A stretch of DNA of 53,395 nucleotides, from positions 1 through 53,395 of IMG/VR virus record IMGVR_UViG_3300009184_000059, one strand, 5' to 3'. The notes under the pieces are model-generated. The model did no database searches. It saw nothing but the letters and a program-made list of their open reading frames with translations, and was not told where the DNA came from. The position numbers and the translations under genes are program-made. Within the stretch, counting starts at the first letter, position 1. The number at the start of each line of letters is the position of its first letter. This document shows positions 3,793-36,400 of the stretch, piece after piece. Source of the stretch: a virus.

Positions 3793-4545
3793 TCATAACC
3801 GCACCGGTGCTGGGTCATAGATCAAGGGTTTTGATAAGAATTCTTTCCACTTCAACAACATCTGGTCATCCCCTAGAGCGCCCATCTCTCTCCAGTGCTG
3901 ACCTTCATTAAGGGGAAGGTTTGTGGCATCATAAGCTACTTTACCATTTCTTAGTTTTTTTGAAAATTGCTCAAAATTCCTATATTGGAAATGCCTTAAT
4001 TGAAAGCTGGAATAGTCTCTATTCCCACTCCTGATTACACTGTGGTTGCCCTGCAAAAGGGTCAAGCCCGGCTCATACCTGAATGCTACACACGGGAATA
4101 CTTGATGGCCTTTTTCTCTGTGAACTATTCTTTTAAGAGGATTTATATCGTATGGATCATTTTCGGTGGGCAGATGATCAAAAGAAGTTGCTTCCACCAC
4201 AGGCTCCTCTATGGAACGGAGTTTCTCCGCCAAAGTAGATCCATCAACCGCATACCAGAATTCGTCGGCATCGAACGGGACAATCCAGTCTGCGCCAAGC
4301 GAACCAGCTTCATGGCTTAATGCGGTCATTTTAGCTGATTGATAATAAGCTATTTCTGGATCATCCTTTATTAAAATATTTTTATATACTCTAGACATAT
4401 CATTTAGGATATCTCTTGTTCCGTCAGTTGATAAATTATCTAAAATAATGATCTGATCTAAGCCTTCAGAAAGAAGGTGCTCTAAGATATATTGAATTAT
4501 ATCTTCTTCATCTTTAACCATGCATATGCCAAAAATTTTACTCAT
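3793..4545 (-). CDS. GT2-type glycosyltransferase (Glyco_tranf_2_4-like)
   Basis: A 250-residue GT-A-fold glycosyltransferase candidate. The N-terminus has the nucleotide-binding pattern ICMVKDEEDII, then Asp-Asn-Leu-Ser-Thr-Asp-Gly-Thr at 36-43, and the metal-binding Asp-Ala-Asp-Glu-Phe at 92-96, which corresponds to the DxD motif that holds the sugar-nucleotide phosphates through a divalent cation. The Val-Lys-Asp-Glu-(Asp/Glu) start is characteristic of this subgroup. Donor and acceptor cannot be told from sequence. It is the last gene of the sugar cassette and overlaps the acyltransferase stop by 8 bases. No membrane segment is visible, so it probably acts in the cytoplasm. Confidence 0.8.
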   Translation of the reverse strand: MSKIFGICMVKDEEDIIQYILEHLLSEGLDQIIILDNLSTDGTRDILNDMSRVYKNILIKDDPEIAYYQSAKMTALSHEAGSLGADWIVPFDADEFWYAVDGSTLAEKLRSIEEPVVEATSFDHLPTENDPYDINPLKRIVHREKGHQVFPCVAFRYEPGLTLLQGNHSVIRSGNRDYSSFQLRHFQYRNFEQFSKKLRNGKVAYDATNLPLNEGQHWREMGALGDDQMLLKWKEFLSKPLIYDPAPVRL

Positions 4546-5149
4546 TATGTTTTATGACTTTTCCGGGAATTCCAACAACTGTACATTTTTCTTCGGTTAT
4601 GTCCCTGATAATAACAGTTCCAGCGCCGATTGTTGTATTTTTAGCAATGTTTATTAAATGAATAATAGAGCACCCAGTCCCTATAAGCGTCTCCTCGCCA
4701 ACCGTAACCTGCCCAGCTATATTTACTCCTGGGGCTATACTACAAAATTGGCCGATAGACGAACCCTGACTTACGGTTGATCCGACGTTGATATGACTAT
4801 GCTGCCCTATGTGGACATTTCCGGTAACTATAGCTCCAGCAAATATGACGACACCTTCGCCTATAGTAGTGTTGCTGCCAATAGAAGCGGAAGGGTGAAT
4901 AATTGTTGCTGAAGTATTCATTCTTTTTTTATGGTATAAACTTTTTTTGAGATTTGGTTCATTAACCCCTATTACGTAATACGCACCCTCTATTAAATGG
5001 TCAATGTCACCAATGACTCCAGCCTTATTGTGGTCATCATCTAGGTACCCCAATAAATCCCAGGTTAAATTTTCCTGGTTAATAGCATTTACTATAGTCT
5101 CTATACCAGAGCCATGTGATCCAGCGCCAATTATAACAAGCTTTTCCAC
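4538..5149 (-). CDS. NeuD/PglD-family sugar O- or N-acyltransferase
   Basis: A left-handed beta-helix acyltransferase of the NeuD/PglD type. The N-terminus has a Rossmann-like glycine motif (LVIIGAGSHG) followed by GYLDDD, as in PglD, which binds a nucleotide sugar. From about residue 85 to the end are isoleucine/valine-led hexapeptide repeats (IGSNTT, IGEGVV, IGQHSH, IGQFCS, VGEETL, IGAGTV), ending in the family-typical GIPGKVIK. Relatives transfer an acetyl group from acetyl-CoA to sialic acid or to a UDP-4-amino sugar. Here it is embedded among glycosyltransferases, so it probably acetylates a sugar made or used by the cassette. Start choice is uncertain: GTG at 5149 gives the usual family start MEKLVIIGAG and a 1-base overlap with the upstream stop; GTG at 5161 adds four residues. 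Confidence 0.8.
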   Translation of the reverse strand: MEKLVIIGAGSHGSGIETIVNAINQENLTWDLLGYLDDDHNKAGVIGDIDHLIEGAYYVIGVNEPNLKKSLYHKKRMNTSATIIHPSASIGSNTTIGEGVVIFAGAIVTGNVHIGQHSHINVGSTVSQGSSIGQFCSIAPGVNIAGQVTVGEETLIGTGCSIIHLINIAKNTTIGAGTVIIRDITEEKCTVVGIPGKVIKHNE

Positions 5150-5829
5150 TAAACGAACCACCCATCCCCACGATAATTACCGGTATGATTAACGATAGGC
5201 TCGTGATCTACGCCGTGCAAAAAAGCGCAAGTTACAGATTCGTCAGAAAATAATAAATTAGAGAATTCAGCTTCTCCCCATCCATTTTGCCATCCCAGAT
5301 CTACTACCCACCTTGGATACAGGCATGGGTTTAGGGTGAAAAAGTTCCTATGCTCAACCCATACTGCGCCTAAAAATTCTGAACTATACTCAGTATATGT
5401 GTCTGGCTTCTGCTCCATAAATCCACCTACCGACGCCTCATCCCCGTTAACAGGCTGCCTTTTTAATGCAACTTGAGCTAGCTTAGGTTTCTGTTTCAAG
5501 ATGTTCTTTAGCAATTCTAAATCTATGCAATGATTAAATGTGAAGTCACCCTCCTGGTGCCACACATAATCTACGTCATGCTCTTTAGCTAATAACCATA
5601 GAGACATAATAGATCCAGATAATCCCATGTTTACCCTATGAGACCAAATAGTATAACGATCGCCATAAATGTCATTGAGCTCTCGTGAATAACCAGCGTC
5701 TCCTGAATCGTCTATTATAACCTTTTCAAAAAAATTATAATCTAAATTAGACTCTAAGGATTTAATAGTTTGATCTAGTAAATCTGGTCTTTTGTTATCG
5801 ATGATACCAAGCAAAACTTTTTCGCTCAT
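5149..5829 (-). CDS. GT2-like glycosyltransferase
   Basis: About 226 residues with a GT-A-type layout: a first strand with Leu-Gly-Ile-Ile-Asp-Asn-Lys-Arg, then Ile-Ile-Asp-Asp-Ser-Gly-Asp, then Asn-Met-Gly-Leu-Ser-Gly, and Gln-Glu-Gly-Asp-Phe in the position of the metal-binding DxD. The last motif is not canonical, so catalysis is likely but less secure than in its neighbours. The C-terminal part has Trp-Gly-Glu-Ala-Glu-Phe, comparable with the catalytic-base region of inverting GT2 enzymes. I chose ATG at 5829, which makes a 4-base ATGA overlap with the upstream stop; a GTG at 5838 would add three residues but has a poorly spaced ribosome site. Substrate unknown. Confidence 0.7.
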   Translation of the reverse strand: MSEKVLLGIIDNKRPDLLDQTIKSLESNLDYNFFEKVIIDDSGDAGYSRELNDIYGDRYTIWSHRVNMGLSGSIMSLWLLAKEHDVDYVWHQEGDFTFNHCIDLELLKNILKQKPKLAQVALKRQPVNGDEASVGGFMEQKPDTYTEYSSEFLGAVWVEHRNFFTLNPCLYPRWVVDLGWQNGWGEAEFSNLLFSDESVTCAFLHGVDHEPIVNHTGNYRGDGWFV

Positions 5830-6503
5830 GCGTGCCACTTCTCCATGTAGTATATTCTATCTTGCTCCACCATAGAATTAAATTCAGGTGTATATCCACC
5901 AGTGGACTTAGACCCGCCATCTATGTGAGTAAATGAAGCATTAGTTGCCATGACAGTTTTTTTTCCAAATTTATGTATACTATGAATTAAATCGTCATCC
6001 CCATACCACCAATTATAATTTGAATCAAAGATTTCATTTCCGCCAAAATGAACTTGACTAGATATAGCAAAACAAAACCCAGCAAACCCCTTATCCTTAT
6101 ACGTTCCCGCTACCTCTACATACGTGCCAGTGCTTAATCTCTCGTCGTAATTGCCGCAAGACGCCCAGATGTCACCATCTAGCAATAATGGATTGACTAA
6201 TTTAGTCAAAAAGTTTTCAGAATGTATTATCAAATCGTCGTTTAAGACCACAATACTACAATCACTAAAGCTACTTTTCGCTATAGATACCCCATAGTTC
6301 CATTGCTGATAGATGTTTAATCCAGCAGTAGGCAAAAGCGTTATCTTTTTATTCTTAAAATCAGATAAAGTATGCGTATGGTCTATATTGCTATTATCTA
6401 ATATTAATAATTGATCAAACTCATCTTGCTCTACCAATTGGAGAACCAAATTATTGACCATATTATCTTTCCATATAGTTGGTATAATGCAAGAAATACT
6501 CAT
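5826..6503 (-). CDS. GT2 glycosyltransferase
   Basis: A 225-residue glycosyltransferase. It begins with the GT2 strand Ser-Cys-Ile-Ile-Pro-Thr, has Leu-Asp-Asn-Ser-Asn (35-39) and the acidic Leu-Asn-Asp-Asp-Leu (87-91) where the metal/nucleotide-binding DxD lies. Gly-Leu-Asn-Ile-Tyr-Gln-Gln-Trp-Asn-Tyr-Gly (61-71) resembles the NxGfaxaxNxG segment of rhamnosyltransferase-like GT2 enzymes. WWYGDDDLIHSI near residue 170 resembles the family's catalytic E/D-D region. It joins the neighbouring genes by 4-base overlaps on the upstream side and at the downstream end, so it belongs to one translational block. Sampled lines inside it are only about 27-35% GC. Confidence 0.75.
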   Translation of the reverse strand: MSISCIIPTIWKDNMVNNLVLQLVEQDEFDQLLILDNSNIDHTHTLSDFKNKKITLLPTAGLNIYQQWNYGVSIAKSSFSDCSIVVLNDDLIIHSENFLTKLVNPLLLDGDIWASCGNYDERLSTGTYVEVAGTYKDKGFAGFCFAISSQVHFGGNEIFDSNYNWWYGDDDLIHSIHKFGKKTVMATNASFTHIDGGSKSTGGYTPEFNSMVEQDRIYYMEKWHA

Positions 6504-7189
6504 CTATTTCCGCCCATCCAAAATGGTAGATCAATGTGATTCCAGGAATTAATACGAGTATGTGCGTTTTTGATATAAAATTCCTCTTCTTCCCCTGGAT
6601 TATCGGAATCAATATACCAAGGTAGATGTCGGATTAAATATGGGTATTGAGTCCTGCAACTAAGGCTAATATCCTGACTTGCACCTGGCCTATATAAAGC
6701 AAAGGTAGTATCAATTGGTGCGTAATTCAAGTTATTCTCAGGAGCACCCCAACTTAAATATTGAGTTTCATGATCTATAACAGCTTGCTTAAATCTATAA
6801 TGGTCAGGAATGTCATCTAGCTTCAAACCAAAACCAACCTTTTGGCGATCATCATACTTATCTAATAAAGATCTAAAATAATCGATAGCATCATCTGGGC
6901 AGTCCTCGATAGGGAGAACATCTGGATCTGAAACTACAAAATAATTATTTGCTGCATACTTGTCCAATACACCGTGTAGCCATACACCAGTGTGACCGGT
7001 GTTACCTAGCATCTTCACTACATTATGTGGAGTTTTCTCGTAGTATTCGAGCAATGGTTCATACGTAGAATCATTATCAACAAGATATATGTTTTCTTGA
7101 CCAACCTTCTCTAACCAATCGACAAGCTTAGAGGTGCAAGTTACTCTATCTCTACAGATTATAAAAATTGGATACTGGGCTAAACTCAT
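6500..7189 (-). CDS. glycosyltransferase-like protein (GT-A fold)
   Basis: A 229-residue protein with the order of motifs expected for a GT-A fold. Residues 6-15 (YPIFIICRDR) form the first strand, Val-Asp-Asn-Asp-Ser-Thr lies at 37-42, Asn-Thr-Gly-His-Thr-Gly at 63-68, and Val-Ser-Asp-Pro-Asp-Val at 86-91 acts as the likely metal-binding acidic motif. The C-terminal half is rich in Trp, Tyr and His and has no evident catalytic pattern, so this member is divergent. It overlaps both neighbours by 4 bases. It was assigned by motif order and context; a non-catalytic or acceptor-binding role cannot be excluded. Confidence 0.65.
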   Translation of the reverse strand: MSLAQYPIFIICRDRVTCTSKLVDWLEKVGQENIYLVDNDSTYEPLLEYYEKTPHNVVKMLGNTGHTGVWLHGVLDKYAANNYFVVSDPDVLPIEDCPDDAIDYFRSLLDKYDDRQKVGFGLKLDDIPDHYRFKQAVIDHETQYLSWGAPENNLNYAPIDTTFALYRPGASQDISLSCRTQYPYLIRHLPWYIDSDNPGEEEEFYIKNAHTRINSWNHIDLPFWMGGNR

Positions 7190-7866
7190 TCAGGAAAAAA
7201 CTTTCCATTATGAACTAACCACTGGACGCTTCCTTCGTGATACCTTTTAGCTTCATTAGATGCTCCTTCTACCGGGTAGAATTTATGTCCTACATCTGTT
7301 AATTTCCGCCAAAAATGAGCGTCTCCTCCACCCCAGATATCGGGAGTGTCAGCCCATCCCCCCACCTCTATAAAGCATTCTTTCGTATGCATTACTGAAT
7401 TGTGATCAACCTTATTCCAGGCATCATCTAATATGCCAGAAACTTCTCTAACTCCCGAGCAATTTCCGTCAGCATCTACGACGTCTTGATTCCCGTATAC
7501 CACTGAAACGTTTTTTTCTTCTAATTCCTTAACCATAACAGCCAAACGATGAGGGTAGTAATAGTCGTCATCTGTCAAATACGTAATATAATCCCCAGAA
7601 GATATATCATTAACAGCCTGATTTATCAAGGTTGCATAGCGTGTTGTTTTGTATCTTTCTTCTTCTGTGACGTCAGAAAATACAGCAATAACCCTAGGAT
7701 CATGCGTATATGTTTCAATTATTTCTTTCACCAAAGGATTAGGGGAATTATCTTCCATGATAATTAATTCCCAATCCTGAAATGTTTGATTAATAACAGA
7801 ATCTAAAGACTGCTTAAGCCATTGTGGCTTATTGTATACCGTGAGTATAACACTAACTTTAGGCAT
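7186..7866 (-). CDS. GT2 family glycosyltransferase
   Basis: A 226-residue, textbook-like GT2 enzyme. The N-terminus Val-Ser-Val-Ile-Leu-Thr-Val-Tyr-Asn-Lys (4-13) is the classical nucleotide-binding strand, followed by the helix QSLDSVINQTFQDWELII, Glu-Asp-Asn-Ser-Pro-Asn (38-43) and the DxD-like Leu-Thr-Asp-Asp-Asp-Tyr-Tyr (97-103). WGGGDAHFWRKL near residue 180 corresponds to the region carrying the catalytic base. It is the most family-like of the seven transferases. It overlaps the upstream gene by 8 bases (ATGCCTAA) and the downstream one by 4. Donor sugar and acceptor are unknown. Confidence 0.85.
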   Translation of the reverse strand: MPKVSVILTVYNKPQWLKQSLDSVINQTFQDWELIIMEDNSPNPLVKEIIETYTHDPRVIAVFSDVTEEERYKTTRYATLINQAVNDISSGDYITYLTDDDYYYPHRLAVMVKELEEKNVSVVYGNQDVVDADGNCSGVREVSGILDDAWNKVDHNSVMHTKECFIEVGGWADTPDIWGGGDAHFWRKLTDVGHKFYPVEGASNEAKRYHEGSVQWLVHNGKFFPE

Positions 7867-8551
7867 AGACCTTCCAATCTACGAGTACCGGATCTGCATC
7901 TACAATAGATTCTATGTGACTCTTCTGGTGAAAATCTCCACCGTCTAGATGCATGTACCTTTCATACTTCAATTTTTTATCATCGTCATCCACATAGCCC
8001 AAATGCTGCATAACTAATGAACTATCGACTAGGTATTTGCCAGATTGTATAAGCTGGTTAACATAAGTAGGCTCGGATCCGCAGGCTAACTTCCTATCAT
8101 TGAAATGTCCATCGTTATAGAACCTAAAAAGTCTAGAGCTGTTATTTGGCGCCCAGAGTTTATCTACTCTGTATTGAGACTGGTTCCACATGTGAAAGAA
8201 TTTGATATTAATGACATCGTATTTATTTTGTTGCAATATCATAGACATGTCGAAATTTGGGTTTGTTGACCAAAGCTTCTCATCGCAATCGATAGCTAGA
8301 ATCCAGTCTCCAGGTTTAGCAAAACCGCATAGATTTGACCAAGCCTGACTCCTTAGTTGCCCTTCATGCTTAGTGAATAGTGTCTCGTCGGTGCTAAATG
8401 TCTCAGCGTACTTAGAGGCTACCTCTTTTGTGTCGTCTTCTGAGCAGTCATCTGTAAACACAATTAAATCGACCATGCTAGACAAGTGCTCCAGCACATC
8501 AGTCAGGTATCTTCCTGACTCATTTTTCCCAACCATATTAGCTATTAACAT
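7859..8551 (-). CDS. GT2 glycosyltransferase (Glyco_tranf_2_4-like)
   Basis: A 230-residue transferase. Motifs are Met-Val-Gly-Lys-Asn-Glu-Ser-Gly-Arg (6-14), Thr-Asp-Asp-Cys-Ser-Glu-Asp-Asp-Thr (33-41) and Ile-Asp-Cys-Asp-Glu (87-91). The last is the metal-binding DxDE seen in the same subgroup as the gene ending at 3793, so these two are likely paralogues. It has a ribosome-binding site of the AAAGGAA type in a 35-base spacer after the previous gene, one of the few gaps in the cassette. No signal peptide or membrane segment is seen. Confidence 0.8.
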   Translation of the reverse strand: MLIANMVGKNESGRYLTDVLEHLSSMVDLIVFTDDCSEDDTKEVASKYAETFSTDETLFTKHEGQLRSQAWSNLCGFAKPGDWILAIDCDEKLWSTNPNFDMSMILQQNKYDVINIKFFHMWNQSQYRVDKLWAPNNSSRLFRFYNDGHFNDRKLACGSEPTYVNQLIQSGKYLVDSSLVMQHLGYVDDDDKKLKYERYMHLDGGDFHQKSHIESIVDADPVLVDWKVYA

Positions 8552-8586: not shown

Positions 8587-9414
8587 TCAGTCACGCTCTA
8601 TACCCATGTGGTCACATGCATCCCTGAAGATGGATTGACTAATCTTAAACTTAGAGTCCGGCTCGCCCCCGATATCCGAAGAAGCATGCCAGCTGTGCCC
8701 TATAGAAACGTGACCATCGTAGACTACGCTATACCCTCTGTGCCTAGCAAAGTAAGAGCACCAGGTCTCCTCGTAGTAGTGTGGCGTAGGCAAAAACGCT
8801 CCATCCGAGAGTGTCGACCATAAAGGTATCTTTCCGGATCCAACCAAATAACTTAGAAGCTCTATATACTGCGGATCGTAAGTCAGGTTTTCCCATACCG
8901 TCTTCTTCACAAAGTAAGCTGAACCAGAGACGGTAACGGCATCTAGGGTGTCCCTGAAAAGATCATCTCCTGGATCTTTAGCCTTCCAGGCCCGGTGCTG
9001 GGGCTTAGTGTTGGTTCCAAAAATTCCGGCGTGAGTTATGTTACCATTCTCATCTCTTTGTTTGGGACCATAGATATCTGCGTCAAGTTCATACATTCTA
9101 TCCTCAATAGTCTTTACATCTTTAGTCCTCAACCAAACATCTGCATTCAGCAGTCCGACTACATTAGACTTACCTTTAGAAGCCAACAGGTTACAAGCAT
9201 AAGCATAACCGTAATTACATGAACTTAAAATAATCTCCCCTGCCCAACCAAGGGGTTTAACTACTTCGGTTAAATATTCTTGACTACCATCCGTAGAGTT
9301 GTTGTCAATAATATATAGGTTAAATATTTCTGAGTCATAATCAGATCCAAGAGTGTCAATAAGCCTCTTAAGCTTATCTTTGGTGTTGTAGGAAACTACG
9401 CAAAGATCGATCAT
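8587..9414 (-). CDS. GT2 glycosyltransferase, rhamnosyltransferase (WbbL)-like
   Basis: The first gene of the sugar cassette, 275 residues. It has the GT2 start Ile-Asp-Leu-Cys-Val-Val-Ser-Tyr-Asn-Thr (2-11), Ile-Asp-Asn-Asn-Ser-Thr-Asp-Gly-Ser (36-44), the Cys-Asn-Tyr-Gly-Tyr-Ala-Tyr-Ala-Cys-Asn segment (66-75) that matches the NxGfaxaxN pattern of rhamnosyltransferases, and Leu-Leu-Asn-Ala-Asp-Val (88-93) as the DxD equivalent. The C-terminal half has YYEETWCSYFARHRGY, in the place of the catalytic-base and acceptor region. A GGAG ribosome site lies 10 bases before the ATG. If rhamnosyl-like, it would use dTDP-rhamnose from the host, since no synthesis genes are here; that specificity is inference. 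Confidence 0.82.
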   Translation of the reverse strand: MIDLCVVSYNTKDKLKRLIDTLGSDYDSEIFNLYIIDNNSTDGSQEYLTEVVKPLGWAGEIILSSCNYGYAYACNLLASKGKSNVVGLLNADVWLRTKDVKTIEDRMYELDADIYGPKQRDENGNITHAGIFGTNTKPQHRAWKAKDPGDDLFRDTLDAVTVSGSAYFVKKTVWENLTYDPQYIELLSYLVGSGKIPLWSTLSDGAFLPTPHYYEETWCSYFARHRGYSVVYDGHVSIGHSWHASSDIGGEPDSKFKISQSIFRDACDHMGIERD

Positions 9415-10349: not shown

Positions 10350-10506
10350 TTAACATCAGTCCAGACAGAATAAACATGGACATAGACACAAGTAGTGTAA
10401 ACAGCTTCAGGTAGATTGTGTTTGCCGTATCTTTAGTGTTGACTATTACAATAACTCCCCAAACAGCAAAAAATCCTGCAAGAAAATAACTTAATAATTC
10501 ACCCAT
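10333..10506 (-). CDS. small two-helix membrane protein, 57 aa
   Basis: A short reading frame of 57 residues, found by translating the apparent gap between ThyX and the deaminase. The ATG is shared with the ThyX end in an 8-base ATGGGTGA overlap, and the stop falls 17 bases into the deaminase, the same coupling used elsewhere in the window. The product has two hydrophobic segments, residues 5-22 (LSYFLAGFFAVWGVIVIV) and about 34-53 (KLFTLLVSMSMFILSGLML), separated by a short polar loop, NTKDTANT. This predicts a helical hairpin in the membrane. It resembles no family I recognise; a holin/antiholin-like or superinfection-exclusion protein is possible, but the position inside a nucleotide-metabolism block is odd. 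Confidence 0.75.
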   Translation of the reverse strand: MGELLSYFLAGFFAVWGVIVIVNTKDTANTIYLKLFTLLVSMSMFILSGLMLNAAIQ

Positions 10507-11221
10507 CTAAGTTCTCCATAATAGCTTTTAGTGATATTGGGAAAAGTGGCTTCACTAAATCCGCCACAGCATTAGCGTAATCGCCAATTTCAGCCTGCGC
10601 CGTGTCATGAAGTCTCTGCTTAAGGAATAAGCCAACAGACTGAAGACTACATGACCAACGGTACACGACATTCATACCATAGGCCGGTAAGAATAGTCTA
10701 GCTTGCTCGGGTGCTACCCCGAGGGTATTCATTGCGTACTCGTAATTCTTTACACATTCGTCTATCGTCTTGCTCAGTAGGGCTGTCAACTCAAAGCCCT
10801 GCTCTAGTTCCAAGACTGGCCCAGAGCCCTGCTTCAGATTTTCCGGTGCACTCCTCCATTGATCTGGGTCTGGAAGATAAAAATCGGGTTCACCTGTTAT
10901 GTATCGCCTACTCGACTCATTCCATGAGTCCATAGTGTGATCAGACCCCACCACGTACTTCCAGTGTTGCCTTGCTACCATAAGGGGAGCTTTAAACTCA
11001 AGCGTTATGAAAGCGTGGCGGAATGGGGACCAATGGTTTTCTTTAGCGAGGAAGTAAATTAACTTTTCATCTTTTTCACTGAGCTTTAAGCTCTCTTTTT
11101 CGTAGGAGGCCCTAGCCGCATTGACTACCGAAAGATCTGATCCCATGCAATCAACTAGTCTAACGTACCCGTTAGAAAGCACGCTCTTTTTATTCGGGTC
11201 TTCGGGGCTACTCTTCTCCAT
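10499..11221 (-). CDS. thyX: flavin-dependent thymidylate synthase ThyX
   Basis: A 240-residue flavoprotein that makes dTMP from dUMP with methylenetetrahydrofolate and NADPH. The fold markers are visible: the N-terminal AARASYEKES, NHWSPFRHAFITLEFKAPLMVARQ, and the C-terminal YRWSCSLQSVGLFLKQRL segment that binds flavin and nucleotide. The signature region runs R84-Q85 ... N101-E102-S-S-R105-R106-Y107. Between them there are several more residues (VVGSDHTMDSW) than in the usual motif RQ...NExSxRY, so the active-site loop looks longer. The start at 11221 is chosen over 11269, which would lie deep in the upstream gene. It is followed by the two-helix membrane protein and dCMP deaminase. Confidence 0.88.
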   Translation of the reverse strand: MEKSSPEDPNKKSVLSNGYVRLVDCMGSDLSVVNAARASYEKESLKLSEKDEKLIYFLAKENHWSPFRHAFITLEFKAPLMVARQHWKYVVGSDHTMDSWNESSRRYITGEPDFYLPDPDQWRSAPENLKQGSGPVLELEQGFELTALLSKTIDECVKNYEYAMNTLGVAPEQARLFLPAYGMNVVYRWSCSLQSVGLFLKQRLHDTAQAEIGDYANAVADLVKPLFPISLKAIMENLDG

Positions 11222-11564
11222 CTTCGCTCTCTTCAAGCTCCTCATCCTCATCATCTTCATTGTCCTCATCTAAATCATCATCATAGTCGTCGCTAAAGAT
11301 AATATCCATTTGAATATCATCATTGAATTTTTCTGAAACTTCTTTTACATTGTTTAATAATTCTAAAAAATCAGCTGTAATTTCCACGTCGGACGCCCTA
11401 AGGAGTTCGCTCATTAGATTAGAGAGTTGTGCGCATACAAAAGTTATGCTAGCTAGCGTTTCGGATACTTCATTCAATGCTATCTGCTGAAAACTAGGCT
11501 CGTCAAAATCTTCTTGACTTATAATTTCATCAAACTTTGAATCAAACTCTTCAGCGCTAGCCAT
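11208..11564 (-). CDS. acidic hypothetical protein with Asp/Glu-rich tail
   Basis: About 118 residues. The first two thirds are helical and leucine-rich (TFVCAQLSNLMSELLRA). The last 30 residues are almost only Asp and Glu with scattered Leu, Gly and Ser. Such acidic tails occur in DNA mimics, chaperone-like proteins and nucleic-acid competitors, but no family is recognised. The ATG at 11564 has an AAGGAT ribosome site at good spacing; another ATG three codons earlier (11573) has only a directly adjacent AAGG. It lies between the ribonucleotide reductase and ThyX and overlaps the ThyX start by 14 bases, so co-regulation with nucleotide synthesis is likely. Confidence 0.6.
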   Translation of the reverse strand: MASAEEFDSKFDEIISQEDFDEPSFQQIALNEVSETLASITFVCAQLSNLMSELLRASDVEITADFLELLNNVKEVSEKFNDDIQMDIIFSDDYDDDLDEDNEDDEDEELEESEDGEE

Positions 11565-11575
11565 ATAGTGCATCC

Positions 11576-13600
11576 TTATATTTCACAGGTATCGTTAGAA
11601 CAGAACTTTTCACCTTCTGCGTCAAATGAATTTCCTTTATAAAAATCTGTCCAATCGATACGCTTTACACTAGATACGCTACTATCCCAAGATTCCATAG
11701 CAATCCTTTCATAAGGCATTTGCTTATAGGCTCCGCCAACCTCTAGTATTGGTAGCATTGAAACTGATTTTAGTTGACCGTCTAGACTACGTAGCAAAGC
11801 ACCAATTTGGGGTTTTTCGCTTTCGGTAAACGTAATAGTAACAGAAACTTGGTTATCGGCCCAATACCTTTGGGCTAAGATAGCAAGTGCCGTCTTTTCC
11901 CACATAGAAACATCTCTCTCCGTTCTTACTTCTGGCCCAACTGTAGGAAGCTCGACAACCACACTGTGGGTAGGGTCCATGACATCTGGCTCGGTATGGT
12001 ACCCTGCGGCACTTAAGGAGTCTAGGAGTGGGTCATTGGAAGCTAGGCGCATCCTGCGAATGTATACATCCGCGACAGGCCAGTGGACACCGGGGGTAAC
12101 CCCGAAAAGTAGAGATACAGTGCCAGAAGGTTTAACTGAAGTAGTCTTAATAGACTGGCGGCAGCCAAGCCATTCTGAATACTTAGTATCAAGCATCTGA
12201 ATATAGTCATAGCCAGTGTCTAACCAGCCCCTTAGGTCGGTCCAGCCACGTGTCTCAGCAAAATGCGCTAACCCAGATACGGAACAACCTATCCGCCTAT
12301 TCCTTTGCATAATCGCATTAGTCTCAGGCCAATGGGTTGGGAGGAGCGTGACGGACTTGGCGTAGAGGTAAGATACCTTTAGTGTCTTATTGAAATCTTC
12401 CAATGTATCATGTCGTGAGATGAAATTCTCGACTAGCGTGCAACATTCTCCAGATTCCAAGGTCTGCTCCGAACATGGGTTTGTCCCTGCGGCGCGCCTA
12501 TCCTTATCATTCTTTGGGTCGACTAAGCGACCATAGGAACGACAGAGGTCCAACCAAACGATACCTGGTTCCCCATTGTCTGCTATTCTTTCTGCTATAT
12601 TATCGAAGTTATCTCCAACCTTAGCCACGATAGAATTATTTGAGGTATGCCCCCAACCATTGGCTCCCATGCGTTCCGGGTTAACTTCCCAGTTTTTAAG
12701 GTCTAGGAATTCTGGGTCATCTGCACTGCCCAGTGCGATTTCAGCCGACCTTCTAACGTTGCCAGCTACAACACATTTGCCTATCTTATTTTGCACATCA
12801 ACAATATCTGTTGTCGTAATCCTCTGCCCTGCCCTATTTTCGAACTGATCCCTAAGAGTCCTATGTAACTCCATTAGAGGACCTGGGCCGGCTGCAACGC
12901 CGCCAAAACCTTTTATAGGCTCTCCAGATGGTCTTATCTCCGAGTAGTCAAACTCAATACTATTCCTATTAGCAAAAAAATATGATTCAAGTAAAGTGGA
13001 TACCGATTCACACCAACCCTCCCTGGAGTCAGGCACTACAACGACCTTTACCTCATCTAAAGGCTGATGTATCTCCAGTTTTCCTGCACCCTTAGTGTCG
13101 AAACCCACCCCAACACCAAGCATAGACATCTCCATTAACCTAACGAAGGGCCAGACTGCCTCGTAAACGCTTCTAGAGGAAATGCCCTCGGTAGATAGGA
13201 AGCTACAGTTCTGCAGTGCGGCAGAGTTGTGCTGCCCGTTAACAAACTCTGTACCCATCATCCACAGCCCTCGACCGGGCGGGGTCCATTTTCCTACAAA
13301 TAATCTCTCGTACGCATCTTGAGCGGTAGCCTGAGCTTTCCTCTCGTTCCATGGTAGCCTATTGGACTTACACCAATCTTTTTGTATGGAGAACATACCT
13401 TCAATTACCCTGCGGCATGTTTCGGACCAGCGCTCTTTGCCGCCATCCGCCTTCCTCCTACTATACTTGGTGAGGAATGTTAATTCACCAAGTGAATTTC
13501 CAGCACCGATCGGGAAACCCCAAGGTACTGTGCGGTCTTTGTATTCCTTCATGAATTCTTCTGGCAACCTAAAAGAAAGGAAAGATGGATCCTCTGGCAT
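11576..13600 (-). CDS. nrdJ: adenosylcobalamin-dependent ribonucleotide reductase (class II, monomeric NrdJ/RTPR type)
   Basis: A 674-residue ten-stranded-barrel enzyme that reduces ribonucleotides to deoxyribonucleotides with a B12-derived radical. Start of the barrel: PPGRGLWMMGTEFV, then N131-C132-S-F (redox cysteine), NPCSEQ at 374-379 (radical-site C376 and E378), and C386/C387 as the partner redox cysteine. The C-terminal shuttle pair is C667-x4-C672. These match the single-chain RTPR type rather than the NrdAB class. It is slightly shorter than the Lactobacillus type (about 740). The ribosome site AGGAG lies 9 bases before ATG. Sampled lines are 47-53% GC, richer than the sugar cassette. 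It requires host or environmental cobalamin. Confidence 0.92.
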   Translation of the reverse strand: MPEDPSFLSFRLPEEFMKEYKDRTVPWGFPIGAGNSLGELTFLTKYSRRKADGGKERWSETCRRVIEGMFSIQKDWCKSNRLPWNERKAQATAQDAYERLFVGKWTPPGRGLWMMGTEFVNGQHNSAALQNCSFLSTEGISSRSVYEAVWPFVRLMEMSMLGVGVGFDTKGAGKLEIHQPLDEVKVVVVPDSREGWCESVSTLLESYFFANRNSIEFDYSEIRPSGEPIKGFGGVAAGPGPLMELHRTLRDQFENRAGQRITTTDIVDVQNKIGKCVVAGNVRRSAEIALGSADDPEFLDLKNWEVNPERMGANGWGHTSNNSIVAKVGDNFDNIAERIADNGEPGIVWLDLCRSYGRLVDPKNDKDRRAAGTNPCSEQTLESGECCTLVENFISRHDTLEDFNKTLKVSYLYAKSVTLLPTHWPETNAIMQRNRRIGCSVSGLAHFAETRGWTDLRGWLDTGYDYIQMLDTKYSEWLGCRQSIKTTSVKPSGTVSLLFGVTPGVHWPVADVYIRRMRLASNDPLLDSLSAAGYHTEPDVMDPTHSVVVELPTVGPEVRTERDVSMWEKTALAILAQRYWADNQVSVTITFTESEKPQIGALLRSLDGQLKSVSMLPILEVGGAYKQMPYERIAMESWDSSVSSVKRIDWTDFYKGNSFDAEGEKFCSNDTCEI

Positions 13601-30200: not shown

Positions 30201-30484
30201 GTAAACTCATCAGTTATTGCGGGATATTCATCTTGCATTACCTCGTTGCCAAATTCGTCCTGCAGGATGCCTAGGTTATTGGAATAAAATAACTTTGTCA
30301 GTCTATCGGAGCCCTGGGTATTCTCTGGGACCATATTCGAGGTATCTAGAATCACCATATTATTGTCGGGAGAAAATGCGGGAGACTTTACCCATGCTAG
30401 GTTTACGTCTCCATCGGGAACCTTTTTGCCCCTTCTGATTGCTTTTTCATTTCCCTCTGATGTAATATTATCAAATTTTTTCAT
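24251..30484 (-). CDS. giant tail protein with peptidoglycan-binding repeats (2,077 aa)
   Basis: A very large tail protein. Two peptidoglycan-binding (PG_binding_1-like) regions are visible. The first, at about 950-1035, has VRFIQYALG ... GVYDNRTYEAVAQFKQ. The second, at about 1230-1350, has tandem units: IQRAVNVNADGDYGPATAAAVRRWK, IQRLLHLTEDGYYGPATERAVRDWQ and a last unit ending IDGLWGPITQKF. This helical fold normally anchors enzymes to the cell wall. The rest is beta-rich, without catalytic motifs. The C-terminal part ends with a VIEDLEGRPWNE tail after VRLPKMLKTAFPDTKQVEEVIRR. It starts in a TAATG overlap after the 2,027-residue gene. Inferred role: tail fibre or baseplate arm holding the virion on the wall during adsorption. 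Confidence 0.75.
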   Translation of the reverse strand: MKKFDNITSEGNEKAIRRGKKVPDGDVNLAWVKSPAFSPDNNMVILDTSNMVPENTQGSDRLTKLFYSNNLGILQDEFGNEVMQDEYPAITDEFTVEENYEITDENEFLNSHILPFRHVSRYFHLDQEDLATSNQPLTIVRSKIRVEDEDGKEYLDLNGNKKYKIKLIQSDQHVESENRTIGVYRVWAYVDVDSDESLYLRYNKAELSSDGSTIKNQNINYREILNPQPFFKYVPEESDVADSANENEKIFTTKSSTQKEQIIGVPRSGMEGYKVFVPKKGIEDPRLFQTFRWRVKADFEERYTVDPTKSQKVIRAGILTYNYPSRTTTDLSSGSVNYNYLKPPTQYPYVFFNMEKSAYNPSGVKIVNPLSEDRGYTIVEDVDPAVQNPSDGNTIYNNSSFQWNGNVNAPLKSVSGEEAKEYAAYWVLDIDAVSEDNLRRFDILLLDLTGFPSDISSYMPKLMRFTRDFGGALYVKAEHMSSANSFGLGISLPVHPFTGSLNKGSSSNVALDSKYGLGDTITVSNATDTIFNGLNPYGGWDFSQDEFNSVSPFIGHPNALYSSARSYVSIIHTNTDATPTADDKEYWKTLFTVKDSSSATKYATTVIKRFGSGGSIIVDTQGIITECGKLEDSSNIAPRRLQIPNYFNQINAARFEGSYKFGWNFILSTIKSRPLDSSDQSGYVSSWSFETEWLPSWVINGTVLKEKEKLQYSFNYEPKDVSTINQFAWRRKLAYGLSSSKSPIFKTLKELVDEQIVKEMGADFLRGISGNQRQYTLEVTNENVITPTTLSGDMYPYAWTESFSPLFIIPEGFGPHIIKDDPISAEYGAGQYIDRSYPSNKFAVKVKASSRDTVQSSTRQTTTILARYRGKEILPSGQVYSHVRLPRTWTEHGSNQISFNRFNKGWGAPRPNAILSRNELLMSKTTAYPFAGIAGNYTTGSSGEVVRFIQYALGRLSSIVSSFLSKGVNGPTPAGMTPNQGYVEASAWALRYVTGTIPQTGVYDNRTYEAVAQFKQLAGARYQDGIADSEFFAILGSQIQFWGLTTEVNQNTNTSGAFETNPYNHLKYTSSPDKYMDLRSVSDSSFLYNYSEMSDSRRNLDRISDVFLVQYPKTFAFEYISITPYLLGLGSNVKIDFVDIQLTRIDTTRFTGDMLNKAWQYYQVEERPGGGSGWIPDSQRVLWGQNPEIWATNNVKQTTWDYRYWTGITKTPDPGYAIINFFSANNRIAFVKMIQRAVNVNADGDYGPATAAAVRRWKETRAYQWGIPVDSNWGLISDVTSIQRLLHLTEDGYYGPATERAVRDWQSRWDGAMPIDGLWGPITQKFTDELFIWLGGTPTIQRIQKHLPQPYFIKPEDLLFNYDPSRALVKNINKTALNGQALPIQIPQDQRSIGNTLIVGVTSTSRAGSQYNNQVELGISDITGYGRDIVGFTTVSGDNAVIDYEGVVRKTFTLIGDMGPIQLNHNYVETGASGTLTDVVWGVDPISEVSTSISPNFNPLQAGLYRLESSNPNVEAFITSDGKLYLRTDEVVNNAVDKYTEGRWLPGPPDKPLEGKVVTMSSRSASTTTTLDVSANPIYAMNENGRIFPGVETGFISKADGIKLLCTLDGRPVGIPVFPTTVGPNERQRHYVELELESYVTSPFVRIGFYDKRQKEFIVNKDGGSKLSYIEYVKRGAQNIYIGVISEAEVLSKQQYPKVIDGLNELPFKYAMPVYGASLRGKSKIGIESIDSTLGASDPWGIPVRSGSFNRNVKVPNSSVMPIGGWLSEYQGKTLQAFYAIAEANNMGWSPIFGRPYVDVKQETPEVISRDIIRIRQAPIVMVMEPTQFPSLANPQRPMLRVWTRESTSSAWVEVAKSDILDYNVSNGLIYLRNPIQEEDENLVRVDYTTVSRVYTVKNIGLEKINLNPYLKAREDLIGVPVYVYIIPQYVRNEDGDIIQESISSSVINVTPDNSVINPYNPLYNPLAIQIGVIFVTASAKIEDLVMIDTRRRGGGAKDLLKPAEVFNKNSEAKAYWDIGFGAGQSFQYGGLVIVRLPKMLKTAFPDTKQVEEVIRRNIPAGVEFVIEDLEGRPWNE

Positions 30485-33400
30485 TATACATCCCTATAAT
30501 CCGGATGGATTTGTGGTAGGTTTTCGATCTTGAACACATAGAAGTCATCACCTAGCATGCCTCTTTGGTATTGGTCGTAAAGGTTGATCGCGTACCATTT
30601 AGCCGGGCTCCATGTATTAGTAACGGGAGTTGCGTCAGCTGTGGGTGTTTCTTCGTCGAAAGTTACAGGAAATGCATTTACTGTTGCGGGAGGAGGAATA
30701 AGGGGCTCTATTACCAGTCTCCCAGATTCATCGAGGTAAATTTTTGGTTGAATATTAAGATTCTGTGATGTTGGTATAGATTGATTCTCCCCATTAACAG
30801 ACCTAAACTTTGGTGGATATTCCCTCCAGAAAACCACATCACCAACAGCCTCCCAGGTTTCCCCTCCCGAGGGACTTGAAGAATACGACTCGGTAGAGAC
30901 AAACCAGTATCCAGGCATATTAGGTGTAGCGGAAACGAAAGGCCCTATACGGAAAACGCCGCTCGAGTCCGCAGTGACTCTGCCAGAATCTGGCCAAATT
31001 GGAGTAGCTGCAGGGCTTGAATCTGGCCCAACATCCGGTGTTGAGTTATTGTTTGTAAATATTTCGTAAACAGACCTACCCTTTTTGTAGGATACGTAAG
31101 CATACGGTACAGGATTACCATCTTCGTTTAGCACTTTCCCATAAACAGATGTAGCACTTAGGCCGTCTGCGGGTATAGCTGTTGGATCGGCTAGTGCATG
31201 CAATTTATAGGGTTCAAATTTGCGTGCTTCTATTTCAAGGTTTAACTCTGAAGTAAAATCACCCGCTACAGTGACAGTAGCAACCTCTACATCTGAGCCT
31301 TCCTCAGAGGTAAGAGTCAACCAAGCAAAACCATCCCTATCTGTGGTTATTGGGGCCGTATTTGTTCCGGTTGAATCAAAAGTGCCGAAAGTAGTAGAAA
31401 CATTATAGGACTGATTAGGCTTTGGGTTGCCGAAACTATCAACAGAATAAATAGAAACTATAGCATAGTCGGTCCCATTTGCAACCAGAATTCCAGGACT
31501 GACCCGCGTTATAGGGGTTGATGCTTCGTATTCGTTCAAGCTTATAAAAACAAAACCTTCTTCAACTGTAGTGTAGAAGGGATTTAAGGGAACGTCTATT
31601 GGTGTCGCTGGATCAAAAACGGAACTTTCATACACTACGCTAAAGGGAGTGGCGCCACTAGGTGTGCTATCAAAAGTTATCTTAGCCCTTTGGGCACCGT
31701 TTGCGGTAAAGTATTCATTGTCTACTATAAATGAATCCCTAAGTTTGTAGGAAACTTCGTAAACATGATTAGTCAATGTTTCTTGGTTTACATCTATTTC
31801 ATTACTACTTGAGTAACCGTTACTGACGATTAGTTGACCAGATGTGTAATCAGAAACTGTTGCATCGTATATGTTTTCGTAAGCTAGATATAGTTTTTCT
31901 GTACCAGTGCCATAAACATATTGAGTATTTTTAAGTGACAGATTAATATTTTCGTCAAAAAATGAAACTTGACGCATTTCCACCGGGGTGGAGCTAAGGG
32001 CCTTCACCAATATAGGGGCGCCCTGCCTAGGCACTTTCTCTGTGTAGAAATCGCTAAATGTAGCCCCTTCAGAACCCGGGGATGCGACTTCTTCTATGGG
32101 GTCTACGTAGAAGTAGTACTCGTCATTCCTATCGTAAAACCAGCCACTATGCATCTGGGGATTCCACTGAGGATTAATTTCGGATTTCATTTTTACTCTA
32201 ACAACAAAAGGAGAGTAGTAGAACAAACCAGATCCATTGTCAATCTCAGTGATCGAATCTAATGGATAAGACGTCCCGGAAGCCCATGCAGTATTAAATG
32301 AGGGTTCAACTGTATTCTGATCTAACCACGATATAACTCTATCATTATTGGTTGATACACCAATCCATGTAACTATACTGTCTTCTGAGTTGGCGATCCC
32401 AAAATCGTTTCTATCTACCTCAAGCGTTGTAAAGCCGTAGTTATTCAGACCACTAGAGGGCTTATTGCCGTTTCTCCATGGGCCGTTTTCGTCTACTACG
32501 CCAGATGCTATGTTAGCGATAGTGCTTTCGAAAGGTATGTACTTTATTTTATGAAGAGGATATTCTGAAAGAAAGACGGTTGCGGGAGAAGCCCCCGACT
32601 TGTTGAGCGTCCACGTTTCACCAGTAACAGCCACACAAGTCGTCGATGCGGCTGTCTGAAACTTGGTGGCGTCGAAGTCTGCGACGGTGGTGCCTGCGAT
32701 GCCGTTCTTGACGATGGCACGGTAGACGGTGCCGACGAACGGAGCAGTGACGCCCGCTCCTGACGTGCCCAGTTCGACGGGGGTGGCGGAGTCGAACACG
32801 GCGACTATGCCTGCGTTCGTGACGGGGCTGAGAGCGGACCAGTTGATTCCATCTGATGATGTGTAGAAGGTCACGACGTGCTGCGTGGACCCGTTGTCTA
32901 CGTCAAGAGTGACGCGCACCCACACGTCGGTCCCTGCCTGAATGGCCGAACCAAACCCCCTCGTCGAGGATGATGCGACCTGACTGCCGTCAGTACTCAG
33001 GTCAAACCAAAGGTTTGTGGAGGTCATGTAGAAGTTCCACGACCTCGCCGCACCACCGCCCCACTTACTCGCAATTATACGGGTGCCGAGAGGAGATGCA
33101 TTTAACTTCACTCGCACGTCAATATCGCCTGTGATCGACAATGCCGCGGAGTCAGGTGTCGACACATAGTTGCCACTAGTCCCGGGCAAAGCCACATAAT
33201 TCCCTGGTATGTTGTCTACTGTTATTTCTATGGATGTCTCTGTTGCCGGAAGTATTACAGCATACCTTTCTCCGCCGCCAGTATCGATATTTACCCAAGA
33301 GTTACTACCGTTGACATATATATTTTCTTTTGGTATAAATATATTAGAAGTTATTTCAGGAACCGCGCCAGACCCATACGAAGCTGCATCATAAGGGACC

Positions 33401-36400
33401 ATGGCACCATAGTCTCCGTCATCATTCACCGTCAATAGCTCTACAACTATTTCCTTAGATTCCTCTGACGTAATATACTGGTCCCATACAATCTCAGGGA
33501 TATCAGCTGACCAGCTAGAAGTGCTTGATACTGCAACACCACTATTAACTGAAACCAGAAAAGTCTGACTATCTGAAACCCATTTGTAGTCTGTCAAGGT
33601 CGTGCTACCATTAACGCCAACCACGAACTCTTGGAAAGCTCTTAGGTCGGTATCTAAATAAGTTCCAGGCGTGGCGCTATCTGCATCAATGTAATCTGAT
33701 GGGGTGGAGTGATTTAACTTGTCGCTTACGTATAAGCTTAAGTCTCCGGAGGGATAGGAGTCTACACCGTGAAAGCCGCTCGGCCATATTTCCCAGCCAT
33801 CATAAGGCGTCCAGTCTCCTGATACTGATGACATTTCCAAGATTATATACTCGTCATAGCCATCTGCTACGGCCAATGCTTTAGCTGCTACTACAATAGG
33901 ATCATCCCAAATAGGGGTTATTGTCCATCCGCTAAAGCTTCCAGTGAAACTTTTTGCCGTAACAGTTACCGTCGTGAATACTGTACTTCCTTTAGCGGTT
34001 ATGACACCCTCAAAATAGGAAGTAAGGCCTGCGGTTCGCGCGACTCTTATCTTGTCACCTATTGAATAAAGATTATTATTAGGTGATAAGCTAATAGTAT
34101 AGCTGCCACCTATAGTTATGGCGGTGGCGTTGATTGAATTGGGGCTAGTTATCCCAACAAAGGTTGAATCGTCAGGATCAGTGTCAGTGTAGTATACGTT
34201 GCCCTTGATCTCTGAATTTGAGCGATGAAAAATTAATTCATTATCGTCAAGTATGGTTGGAGTCGCAGAGTTAATTGATCCAGACTCAAAACCAAATACA
34301 GCATAATATTTATCAGACACCGGTGAAGCGTGGTCATATAAGAAGTACTGGTATTCGGTACTCTGTATCGCGCTGCTAGGGCTAAAGTCATAAAGACCAA
34401 AACCCGCCTCTAACGTATCAAGAGAAAAAACAGGTGTAGCATCGCCTGTCAACAGATTTAGGTAGTTAGGTATAGTCCATCTTGATGATGTAAGGTCGCC
34501 GTTGTAAACTATATCACTTATCTTAATGTAATCAAATAGATTTATATCATCAACATAAAGATCTGAAGACTGCGATATTTCTTCAATAGTCCCAAATATG
34601 TATGACTCTCCAGAATACAAGGTTACAGATTTGCCTTCTTGTATGTCAGGGTTAATTGAGCCATAAATAGAGTCTCTTGGCATTTGAAAAACATAGGAGC
34701 CTGTAATGTCGGCCAACTTAGCCTTCATACTTGTTATGGCTGTGCCTGTGTATTTCTGCTCTTCTATATCGTACCAGTTTAGATAAGGTTGCAGTCTATT
34801 AGTGTCAACAACCGGAATGCTGGTAGTGAAATCAAAATAACTGGGATTTGTGTTTGGCGTTGCGCCACTTCTATCAACGTAGATGCTGGAACGATACACC
34901 TTCCCATCTTCCATGGTTGCTTTAAAGTTCAGCCAGAAATCCTCTTCGGGTACGACGTATACCGTTTTCTCTGCCCTGCCGAAAACATCTACCGACATTT
35001 GAATAGGAAGGTAATCATCTACAAGTGTCTTGGTGAAACCCCTAGCAGTGACCGAGAGATCAAACTCTCTAGGGCCAGTGATGGCATCTGGTCTATAGAG
35101 GAACAAATCCATATCATCACCGACACCAGACTGCGTGTCTGAGTCTGCTAGTGGTTCTGGGTCATATCGGTAAGGGAGTACCCCGTAACCTTTGGATCCT
35201 TCACCGTCTATATCCCAATAAGCTTGGTCCCATTTGAAGTAACCCCACGTGGTCGGGTAAGTAACGGCCATGTAGTCTATTAGGCTTATTAACTTGTCTG
35301 TTGGTAGGCCATCGGGAGTTACGTGTAAAGGGTCCGACAAGATGTCTGACATTTCCAAGACTTCCGGTGTGGCACCTAGGAAAGCTGAGTCTGGCGTAGC
35401 TCCCTCGTATAACCAGAGGTTCAATTCTCTGCGTAGGGCTAATTTAAATGCCTCTAACCCTACTCCTGGCTTGTTCTTGTAAACATCAAGTATTCTTTTC
35501 TTGAACGAATCGTTAGTCTCGCCAGTATGCCTCTCAAGGTCTACGCTCAGCCCGTGCTCATCAAACCAATTCCATACCTGACTTAAGCTCTGATTAAATC
35601 GCGTATCATCTATAGTCAGTATTTGGTAGTATTTCCTAACATATATCGTGTTAGTCGATTGATCTAAATAGAATAGGTCATCATCTTCTTTAGATTTTGA
35701 GAACTCTATAGTATCAAAAGCTCTTGACAGAATAGTCCCGTCACCAATAACTTGGACTATTTTATCTGGTATGCCACTGGTAATGTAGACCCAGTCTAAT
35801 TGGCCTACATCCGAAGTCTCTATAAACGACTGAAGCTGCAAGTACCCTACGTCATTGATTAGGTCGTCCAACCATTCGCCGGCTACGGCGTTTATGAACG
35901 AGCCTGCTAATGTTGTTGGGGTTGCTAGGCTTGGTGTGGCAGACGGTTCTGAGTCTCTACGTATTTCCATCCATTCAGGAAATTTGCGGAGGATGCTAGT
36001 GGTCCTGTCATACAATGGGGTTATAACAGGCTTATCTATAAGGACTTTTACATACAAATCAAAACTTATTGAGCTTAAATCTTTTTCAGACGTAAGGTCA
36101 AGAACTATTCTGCCGTAACGAGGAGTGTTTGGAAGATATATGCCACGATTAAGAGGCACTGAATCTATGCTGGGCCATTCGTCTGGAAAGTTTAGTGTAC
36201 TTAAATCGGTATAATAGAAAGATATAAGCGCAGTTACATCATTGGCCGAAAAATTATTATAAGATATATCCCATGTAGTTACATTAATCCTACCGGTAGT
36301 ATCAACGAAGCGCCCGTCTTTTACATAACCCGAATCAGTAACGATGTTAGGGCTAGCCGAATCATCCAATATGTTGAGGCCCGTCCAAATATCATTACCC

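Follow-up and report, generated by a model that had tools for sequence, protein, structure and literature searches.

A phage of about 42% GC has very probably gained a single LamG-fold module in a tail protein through recombination with a GC-richer virus or prophage; the stretch concerned seems to tolerate exchange, and the module probably binds glycan. The window, that is, the whole stretch of DNA analysed (53,395 nucleotides), is a single 53-kb metagenomic record of a large phage with a mean GC of 0.422. The gene carrying the module, here called P0001, sits among baseplate and tail genes, and its N-terminal part matches phrog_21059 (virion structural protein, E 3.6e-24). A sequence-only reading of the window had proposed that a LamG-like domain was recently transferred, probably from a phage or host of high-GC actinobacteria, into a GC-poor receptor-binding gene. 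Coordinates of all features are given in Table 1.

Table 1 Features of the window, with positions in window coordinates unless marked as residues (aa) of P0001
Feature	Position	Strand	Basis or detail
P0001, tail/baseplate-region structural protein, 2027 aa	30484..36567	-	ORF and orthologues L003, L005, L006, L007, L151
Inserted LamG/pentraxin-fold domain (predicted fold), aa 1118-1332 (215 aa)	32572..33216	-	borders from empty-site orthologues
High-GC block, 0.592 vs 0.424	32577..33187	.	maximum-likelihood GC segmentation of the gene, no coordinates supplied
Core of the block, highest GC3 (0.756), aa 1168-1302	32662..33066	-	GC3 segmentation
Scaffold before the insert, ending in IEITV, GC 0.367, GC3 0.24	33217..33366	-	composition of the adjoining 50 codons
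Scaffold following the insert, with YP..VDENGPW, a segment conserved among orthologues, GC 0.42	32422..32571	-	orthologue comparison and composition
Big_1 bacterial Ig-like domain of P0001, aa 1694-1769, further downstream than the insert	31261..31488	-	PF02369, E 8.8e-9
[AS]TP tripeptides of P0001	aa 37, 210, 215, 390, 399, 569, 710, 768, 954, 965, 1136, 1261, 1526, 1634, 1639, 1654, 1683, 1842, 1854, 1880, 1979
GT2-type glycosyltransferase cluster	3793-9414		members 3793-4545, 5149-5838 (weakly), 7186-7866, 7859-8551, 8587-9414
PglD/hexapeptide acyltransferase-like gene within the GT2 cluster	4538-5161

GC content was 0.547-0.647 in 150-base windows across 32575-33174, the highest values in the window, and the best 300-base GC elsewhere in the window was 0.54. 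The block reached ~59% GC compared with ~42% for the remainder of the gene. The high GC described for 32600-33190 was therefore confirmed, and its limits were closely matched by the segmentation and slightly exceeded by the orthologue borders. The flanks had been put at 27-35% GC, which was too low: GC is 0.367 and 0.42 in the adjoining 50 codons on the two sides, and 0.424 in the remainder of the gene. By codon position, GC in the domain was 0.51/0.56/0.67, as against 0.47/0.42/0.38 for the remaining codons of the gene, so that the compositional contrast expected across 30484-36567 was recovered most clearly in GC3 (0.67 vs 0.38). Because the difference is largest at codon position 3, the excess is largely synonymous. 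Amino-acid content was ruled out as the cause of the high GC, as GC3 carries the largest part of it. The log-likelihood ratio of the GC3 segment was 35.2. No value above 12.7 arose in 100 permutations, and six other long genes of the window did not exceed 10.4.

Along the domain, GC3 was 0.72-0.84 in the core and 0.48-0.56 in the initial 50 residues, with mixed values in the last 30 (0.38, 0.71). The weaker edges fit partial amelioration or, less likely, a history in two steps, in which a resident LamG had already ameliorated and only its core (~aa 1168-1302) was later replaced by a GC-rich homologous segment. This contrast between core and edges is what such a replacement would leave, but even the edges lie above the GC3 of the scaffold (0.24 before the insert, 0.40 after), and the pieces are short. 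Moreover, GC segmentation without codon position covers nearly the whole domain, and a resident LamG turned up in none of the orthologues. We consider core replacement unlikely and favour acquisition of the whole module.

AlphaFold2 (AF2) predicted a confident beta-sandwich at aa ~1123-1333 (pLDDT mostly >90), and the predicted fold limits coincided with the insert borders. Structural matches to the model included pentraxin, neurexin LNS and laminin G, with Z of 16-19 over 166-195 residues. The block is predicted to be one complete LamG/pentraxin-fold domain in frame, in agreement with the sequence-only reading, and "LamG-like" appears to be right as a description of fold. By sequence, the domain matched phrog_5313 (E 5e-22, 78.9 bits, profile positions 230-432 of 1052). 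No Pfam family was found for it up to E 10, including Laminin_G_3 (PF13385) and the other Pfam LamG models, and neither single nor profile searches gave a convincing PDB relative. Many lectins share this fold, and P0001 is encoded among baseplate and tail genes; a host-surface glycan is therefore the most likely ligand of the module, whose binding would alter or widen adsorption. The protein had been called receptor-binding; that it is a tail protein was upheld, and the receptor-binding role is suggested by fold and context.

Orthologues lacking the block defined its borders. L003 is collinear with the window gene (58% amino-acid identity before the block, 64% after), and tblastn pieces against it end at aa 1117 and restart at aa 1333, which sets the borders at aa 1118-1332. 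The LamG domain is the sole run of at least 20 window residues missing from L003. In L005, L006 and L007 (about 40-45% identical), an IEITV-like stretch passes through a short linker into YP..VDENGPW with no domain, which brings the empty sites to four orthologues (40-64% identical). The LamG family gave no match in six orthologue records, some of them fragments, and all five positive-control records matched. The simplest reading is an insertion in the window's lineage rather than loss in the relatives; one 215-residue module would have been taken up in frame by a short loop between the strand-like IEITV and the conserved YP..VDENGPW. Taken together, composition and L003's empty site suggest that the insertion postdates the split from L003. 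The AF2 model of the empty-site region of L003 (pLDDT 44) was too poor for placing the loop, and no recombinase gene was seen beside the insert in the window's list of open reading frames.

A sharp compositional step in a metagenomic contig could also arise if a GC-rich fragment had been misjoined during assembly, and no further copy of the allele with the insert turned up in viral scans. However, the reading frame is kept across both joins, which fall at domain borders, the gene is collinear with L003 on either side, and assembly would have had to misjoin twice, at points separated by 645 bases, which makes a chimera barely credible. A genuine insertion remains the preferred reading.

Homologues of the domain showed that its composition is unusual in the window gene. 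In 141 homologues, domain GC minus that of the own open frame was -0.002 (SD 0.026), whereas in the window the difference from the own gene was +0.158 (z 6.0) and the GC3 difference was +0.288 (z 4.0). Domain GC of the homologues followed that of the surrounding DNA (r 0.93), low-GC phages included, and in phages of 38-47% GC with the domain it was usually near the phage's own. Since low-GC phages carry the domain at matching GC, high GC is not demanded by the domain, and its mismatch here is the mark of a foreign origin. There is good support for a GC-richer source of the domain. With four empty sites, the family absent from six orthologue records and GC six SD out, the domain-level transfer from a higher-GC source claimed by the sequence-only reading was borne out. 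A rival reading is that of an ancestral domain, lost in the relatives and driven to high GC here by local selection. The LamG family does occur in low-GC phages, as this history would need, but several losses at nearly the same borders would be required, and the homologues in low-GC phages follow the GC of their own genes; we regard it as very improbable. Gain from a GC-richer source remains our preferred reading.

The donor is narrowed only to "richer in GC", and an actinobacterial origin is only plausible. Among phage records, most homologues came from Streptomyces, Arthrobacter and Curtobacterium phages and a few from others, e.g. Cellulophaga phage phi17:2; among bacterial genomes, they were mainly in Streptomyces and other actinobacteria. 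The LamG-like domains of phrog_5313 and actinophage minor-tail proteins (gp38 of Streptomyces phage phiSASD1, gp25 of Arthrobacter phage Shoya and gp16 of Curtobacterium phage Teagster) are of the same family over the full length and likewise internal to long tail proteins. They differ from the window domain in their identity of 34-40%, an unrelated scaffold, and a domain GC equal to that of the gene. The closest known homologue lies on a contig of a Burkholderiales-labelled MAG (L099, JALHRQ010000005.1), with 47% amino-acid identity over query aa 9-212. It is inside a 1117-codon frame (L099:4194-7544), 3' of genes read as tape-measure-like and lambda-tail-like. As in the window, it is one internal domain of a tail-region protein; unlike in the window, the scaffold is another one and the domain is GC-poorer than its gene. 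The values there are 0.554 in a gene of 0.648, a mismatch opposite to the window's. The protein search thus agreed with the proposed actinobacterial donor in that the family is commonest in actinophages, but not in the low-GC phages that also carry it or in this best match.

No donor above 47-50% amino-acid identity was found among the phage and bacterial records searched, and none at the DNA level among 50,697 phage records. In the tree, a long branch (1.16) led to the window domain, which belonged to no starred group comprising half of the rows or fewer. Smug et al. 2023 called mosaicism of phage receptor-binding proteins recent at an identity of at least 70% (PMC10684548). No partner of at least 70% identity in another context was found for the window domain, the best being 47-50%, and hence the event is not callable as recent by that criterion. 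The earlier claim of a recent transfer is thus to be qualified: composition and the empty sites are its basis, and a homologue above 47-50% is missing.

The LamG family occurs as an internal domain of unrelated tail proteins, between which it travels. In an unrelated phage tail gene (L096:1496-6757), a 436-residue block (aa 815-1250) has 54.6% GC in a gene of 38.5% and holds a LamG of the same family together with a second lectin-like stretch. This is an independent second case of a GC-rich block nested in a GC-poor tail gene. Another orthologue of P0001 (L151:4338-10214) is 55% identical outside the window's LamG, is without LamG, and carries an Lcl_C-type domain at L151:7365-7900 (PF07603, E 4e-7, just under the cut-off). 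Direct alignment placed this domain ~20 residues N-terminal to the LamG site and ruled out an identical site. With orthologues either empty or bearing a different lectin-type domain nearby, the stretch seems to accept and exchange different modules, and P0001 looks like a platform for swapping host-binding modules. A neighbouring loop of a sister phage with another lectin-type domain shows where such tail proteins take new binding modules. An extra block of ~200 residues near the C-terminus of the L006 protein (L006:9591-10190), weakly LamG-like (E 0.21), may mark a further module site, and L160 is divergent in the insert region.

The window case is domain mosaicism of a known kind and an unusually legible example of it. 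As in the cases of Smug et al. (PMC10684548), a homologous domain is common to otherwise unrelated tail proteins; the difference is that a partner of at least 70% identity is lacking here and that the evidence consists of composition and empty sites. It is a clean transfer of a single domain, recognized while the foreign composition still persists, and empty orthologous sites define both borders.

P0001 is also rich in one type of tripeptide. It holds 15 ATP and 6 STP (21 [AS]TP), compared with 1.7 after shuffling (no more than 7 in any of 2000 shuffles). All other proteins of the window, 36 in number, contain 2 ATP and no STP in total. The motif was noticed post hoc in the window, and the orthologues are a partial check since they share ancestry: seven of them have 100 ATP vs 3.5 expected (28-fold), the next enriched tripeptides of the type being ASP (4.7-fold) and STP (3.9-fold). 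Of the ungapped cells aligned with the T of ATP, 77% held T or S, compared with 48% for other T. Many of the positions are lineage-specific, and 18 ATP were found in one orthologue only. The [AS]TP pattern was absent from distant homologues. ATP as a DNA motif or mobile insert was ruled out, as GCNACNCC occurs on the gene's sense strand in the reading frame only (15/15) and the codons are mixed. Homologues of the LamG domain are nearly devoid of ATP (2 in 18,821 residues), and at the position where the window LamG has SATP, [SG]TAP or a similar sequence prevails among them; imported modules may thus gain [AS]TP sites.

GT2-type glycosyltransferase matches numbered at least four in the window and three to five in each of five of the six orthologue records, the sixth being a 47-kb fragment. 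They were found in one of nine distant-homologue records, not all of which are independent. From this co-occurrence of motif and cluster, we hypothesize that [AS]TP is a candidate O-glycosylation sequon; structural turns or the binding of another virion protein are alternative roles. More tentatively, and with doubt prevailing, P0001 could be a glycosylated adhesin platform, in which lectin-type modules are swapped in neighbouring loops and ~20 [AS]TP are O-glycosylated by the phage's own glycosyltransferase cluster. If true, a tail protein would carry an O-glycosylation sequon that is both new and phage-encoded. The recurrence of [AS]TP alongside matching glycosyltransferase clusters makes such a sequon a prediction open to test. 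In mycobacteriophages, phage glycosyltransferases modify the phage's own structural proteins (Freeman et al. 2023, as cited in PMC12363180). The parallel concerns [AS]TP only and lies in the phage-encoded glycosyltransferases; in contrast, the modification here is suggested by dispersed [AS]TP and glycosyltransferase clusters, and its substrate would be a tail protein.

Elsewhere in the window, structural genes resemble those of Moorella and Bacillus phages. The class II (B12-dependent) RNR at 11576-13600 and the ThyX region at 10499-11269 give mixed host signals, the former being closest to Actinomycetia phage DSL-LC01 (55%) and the ThyX to Geobacillus and Bacillus phages (54-59%).
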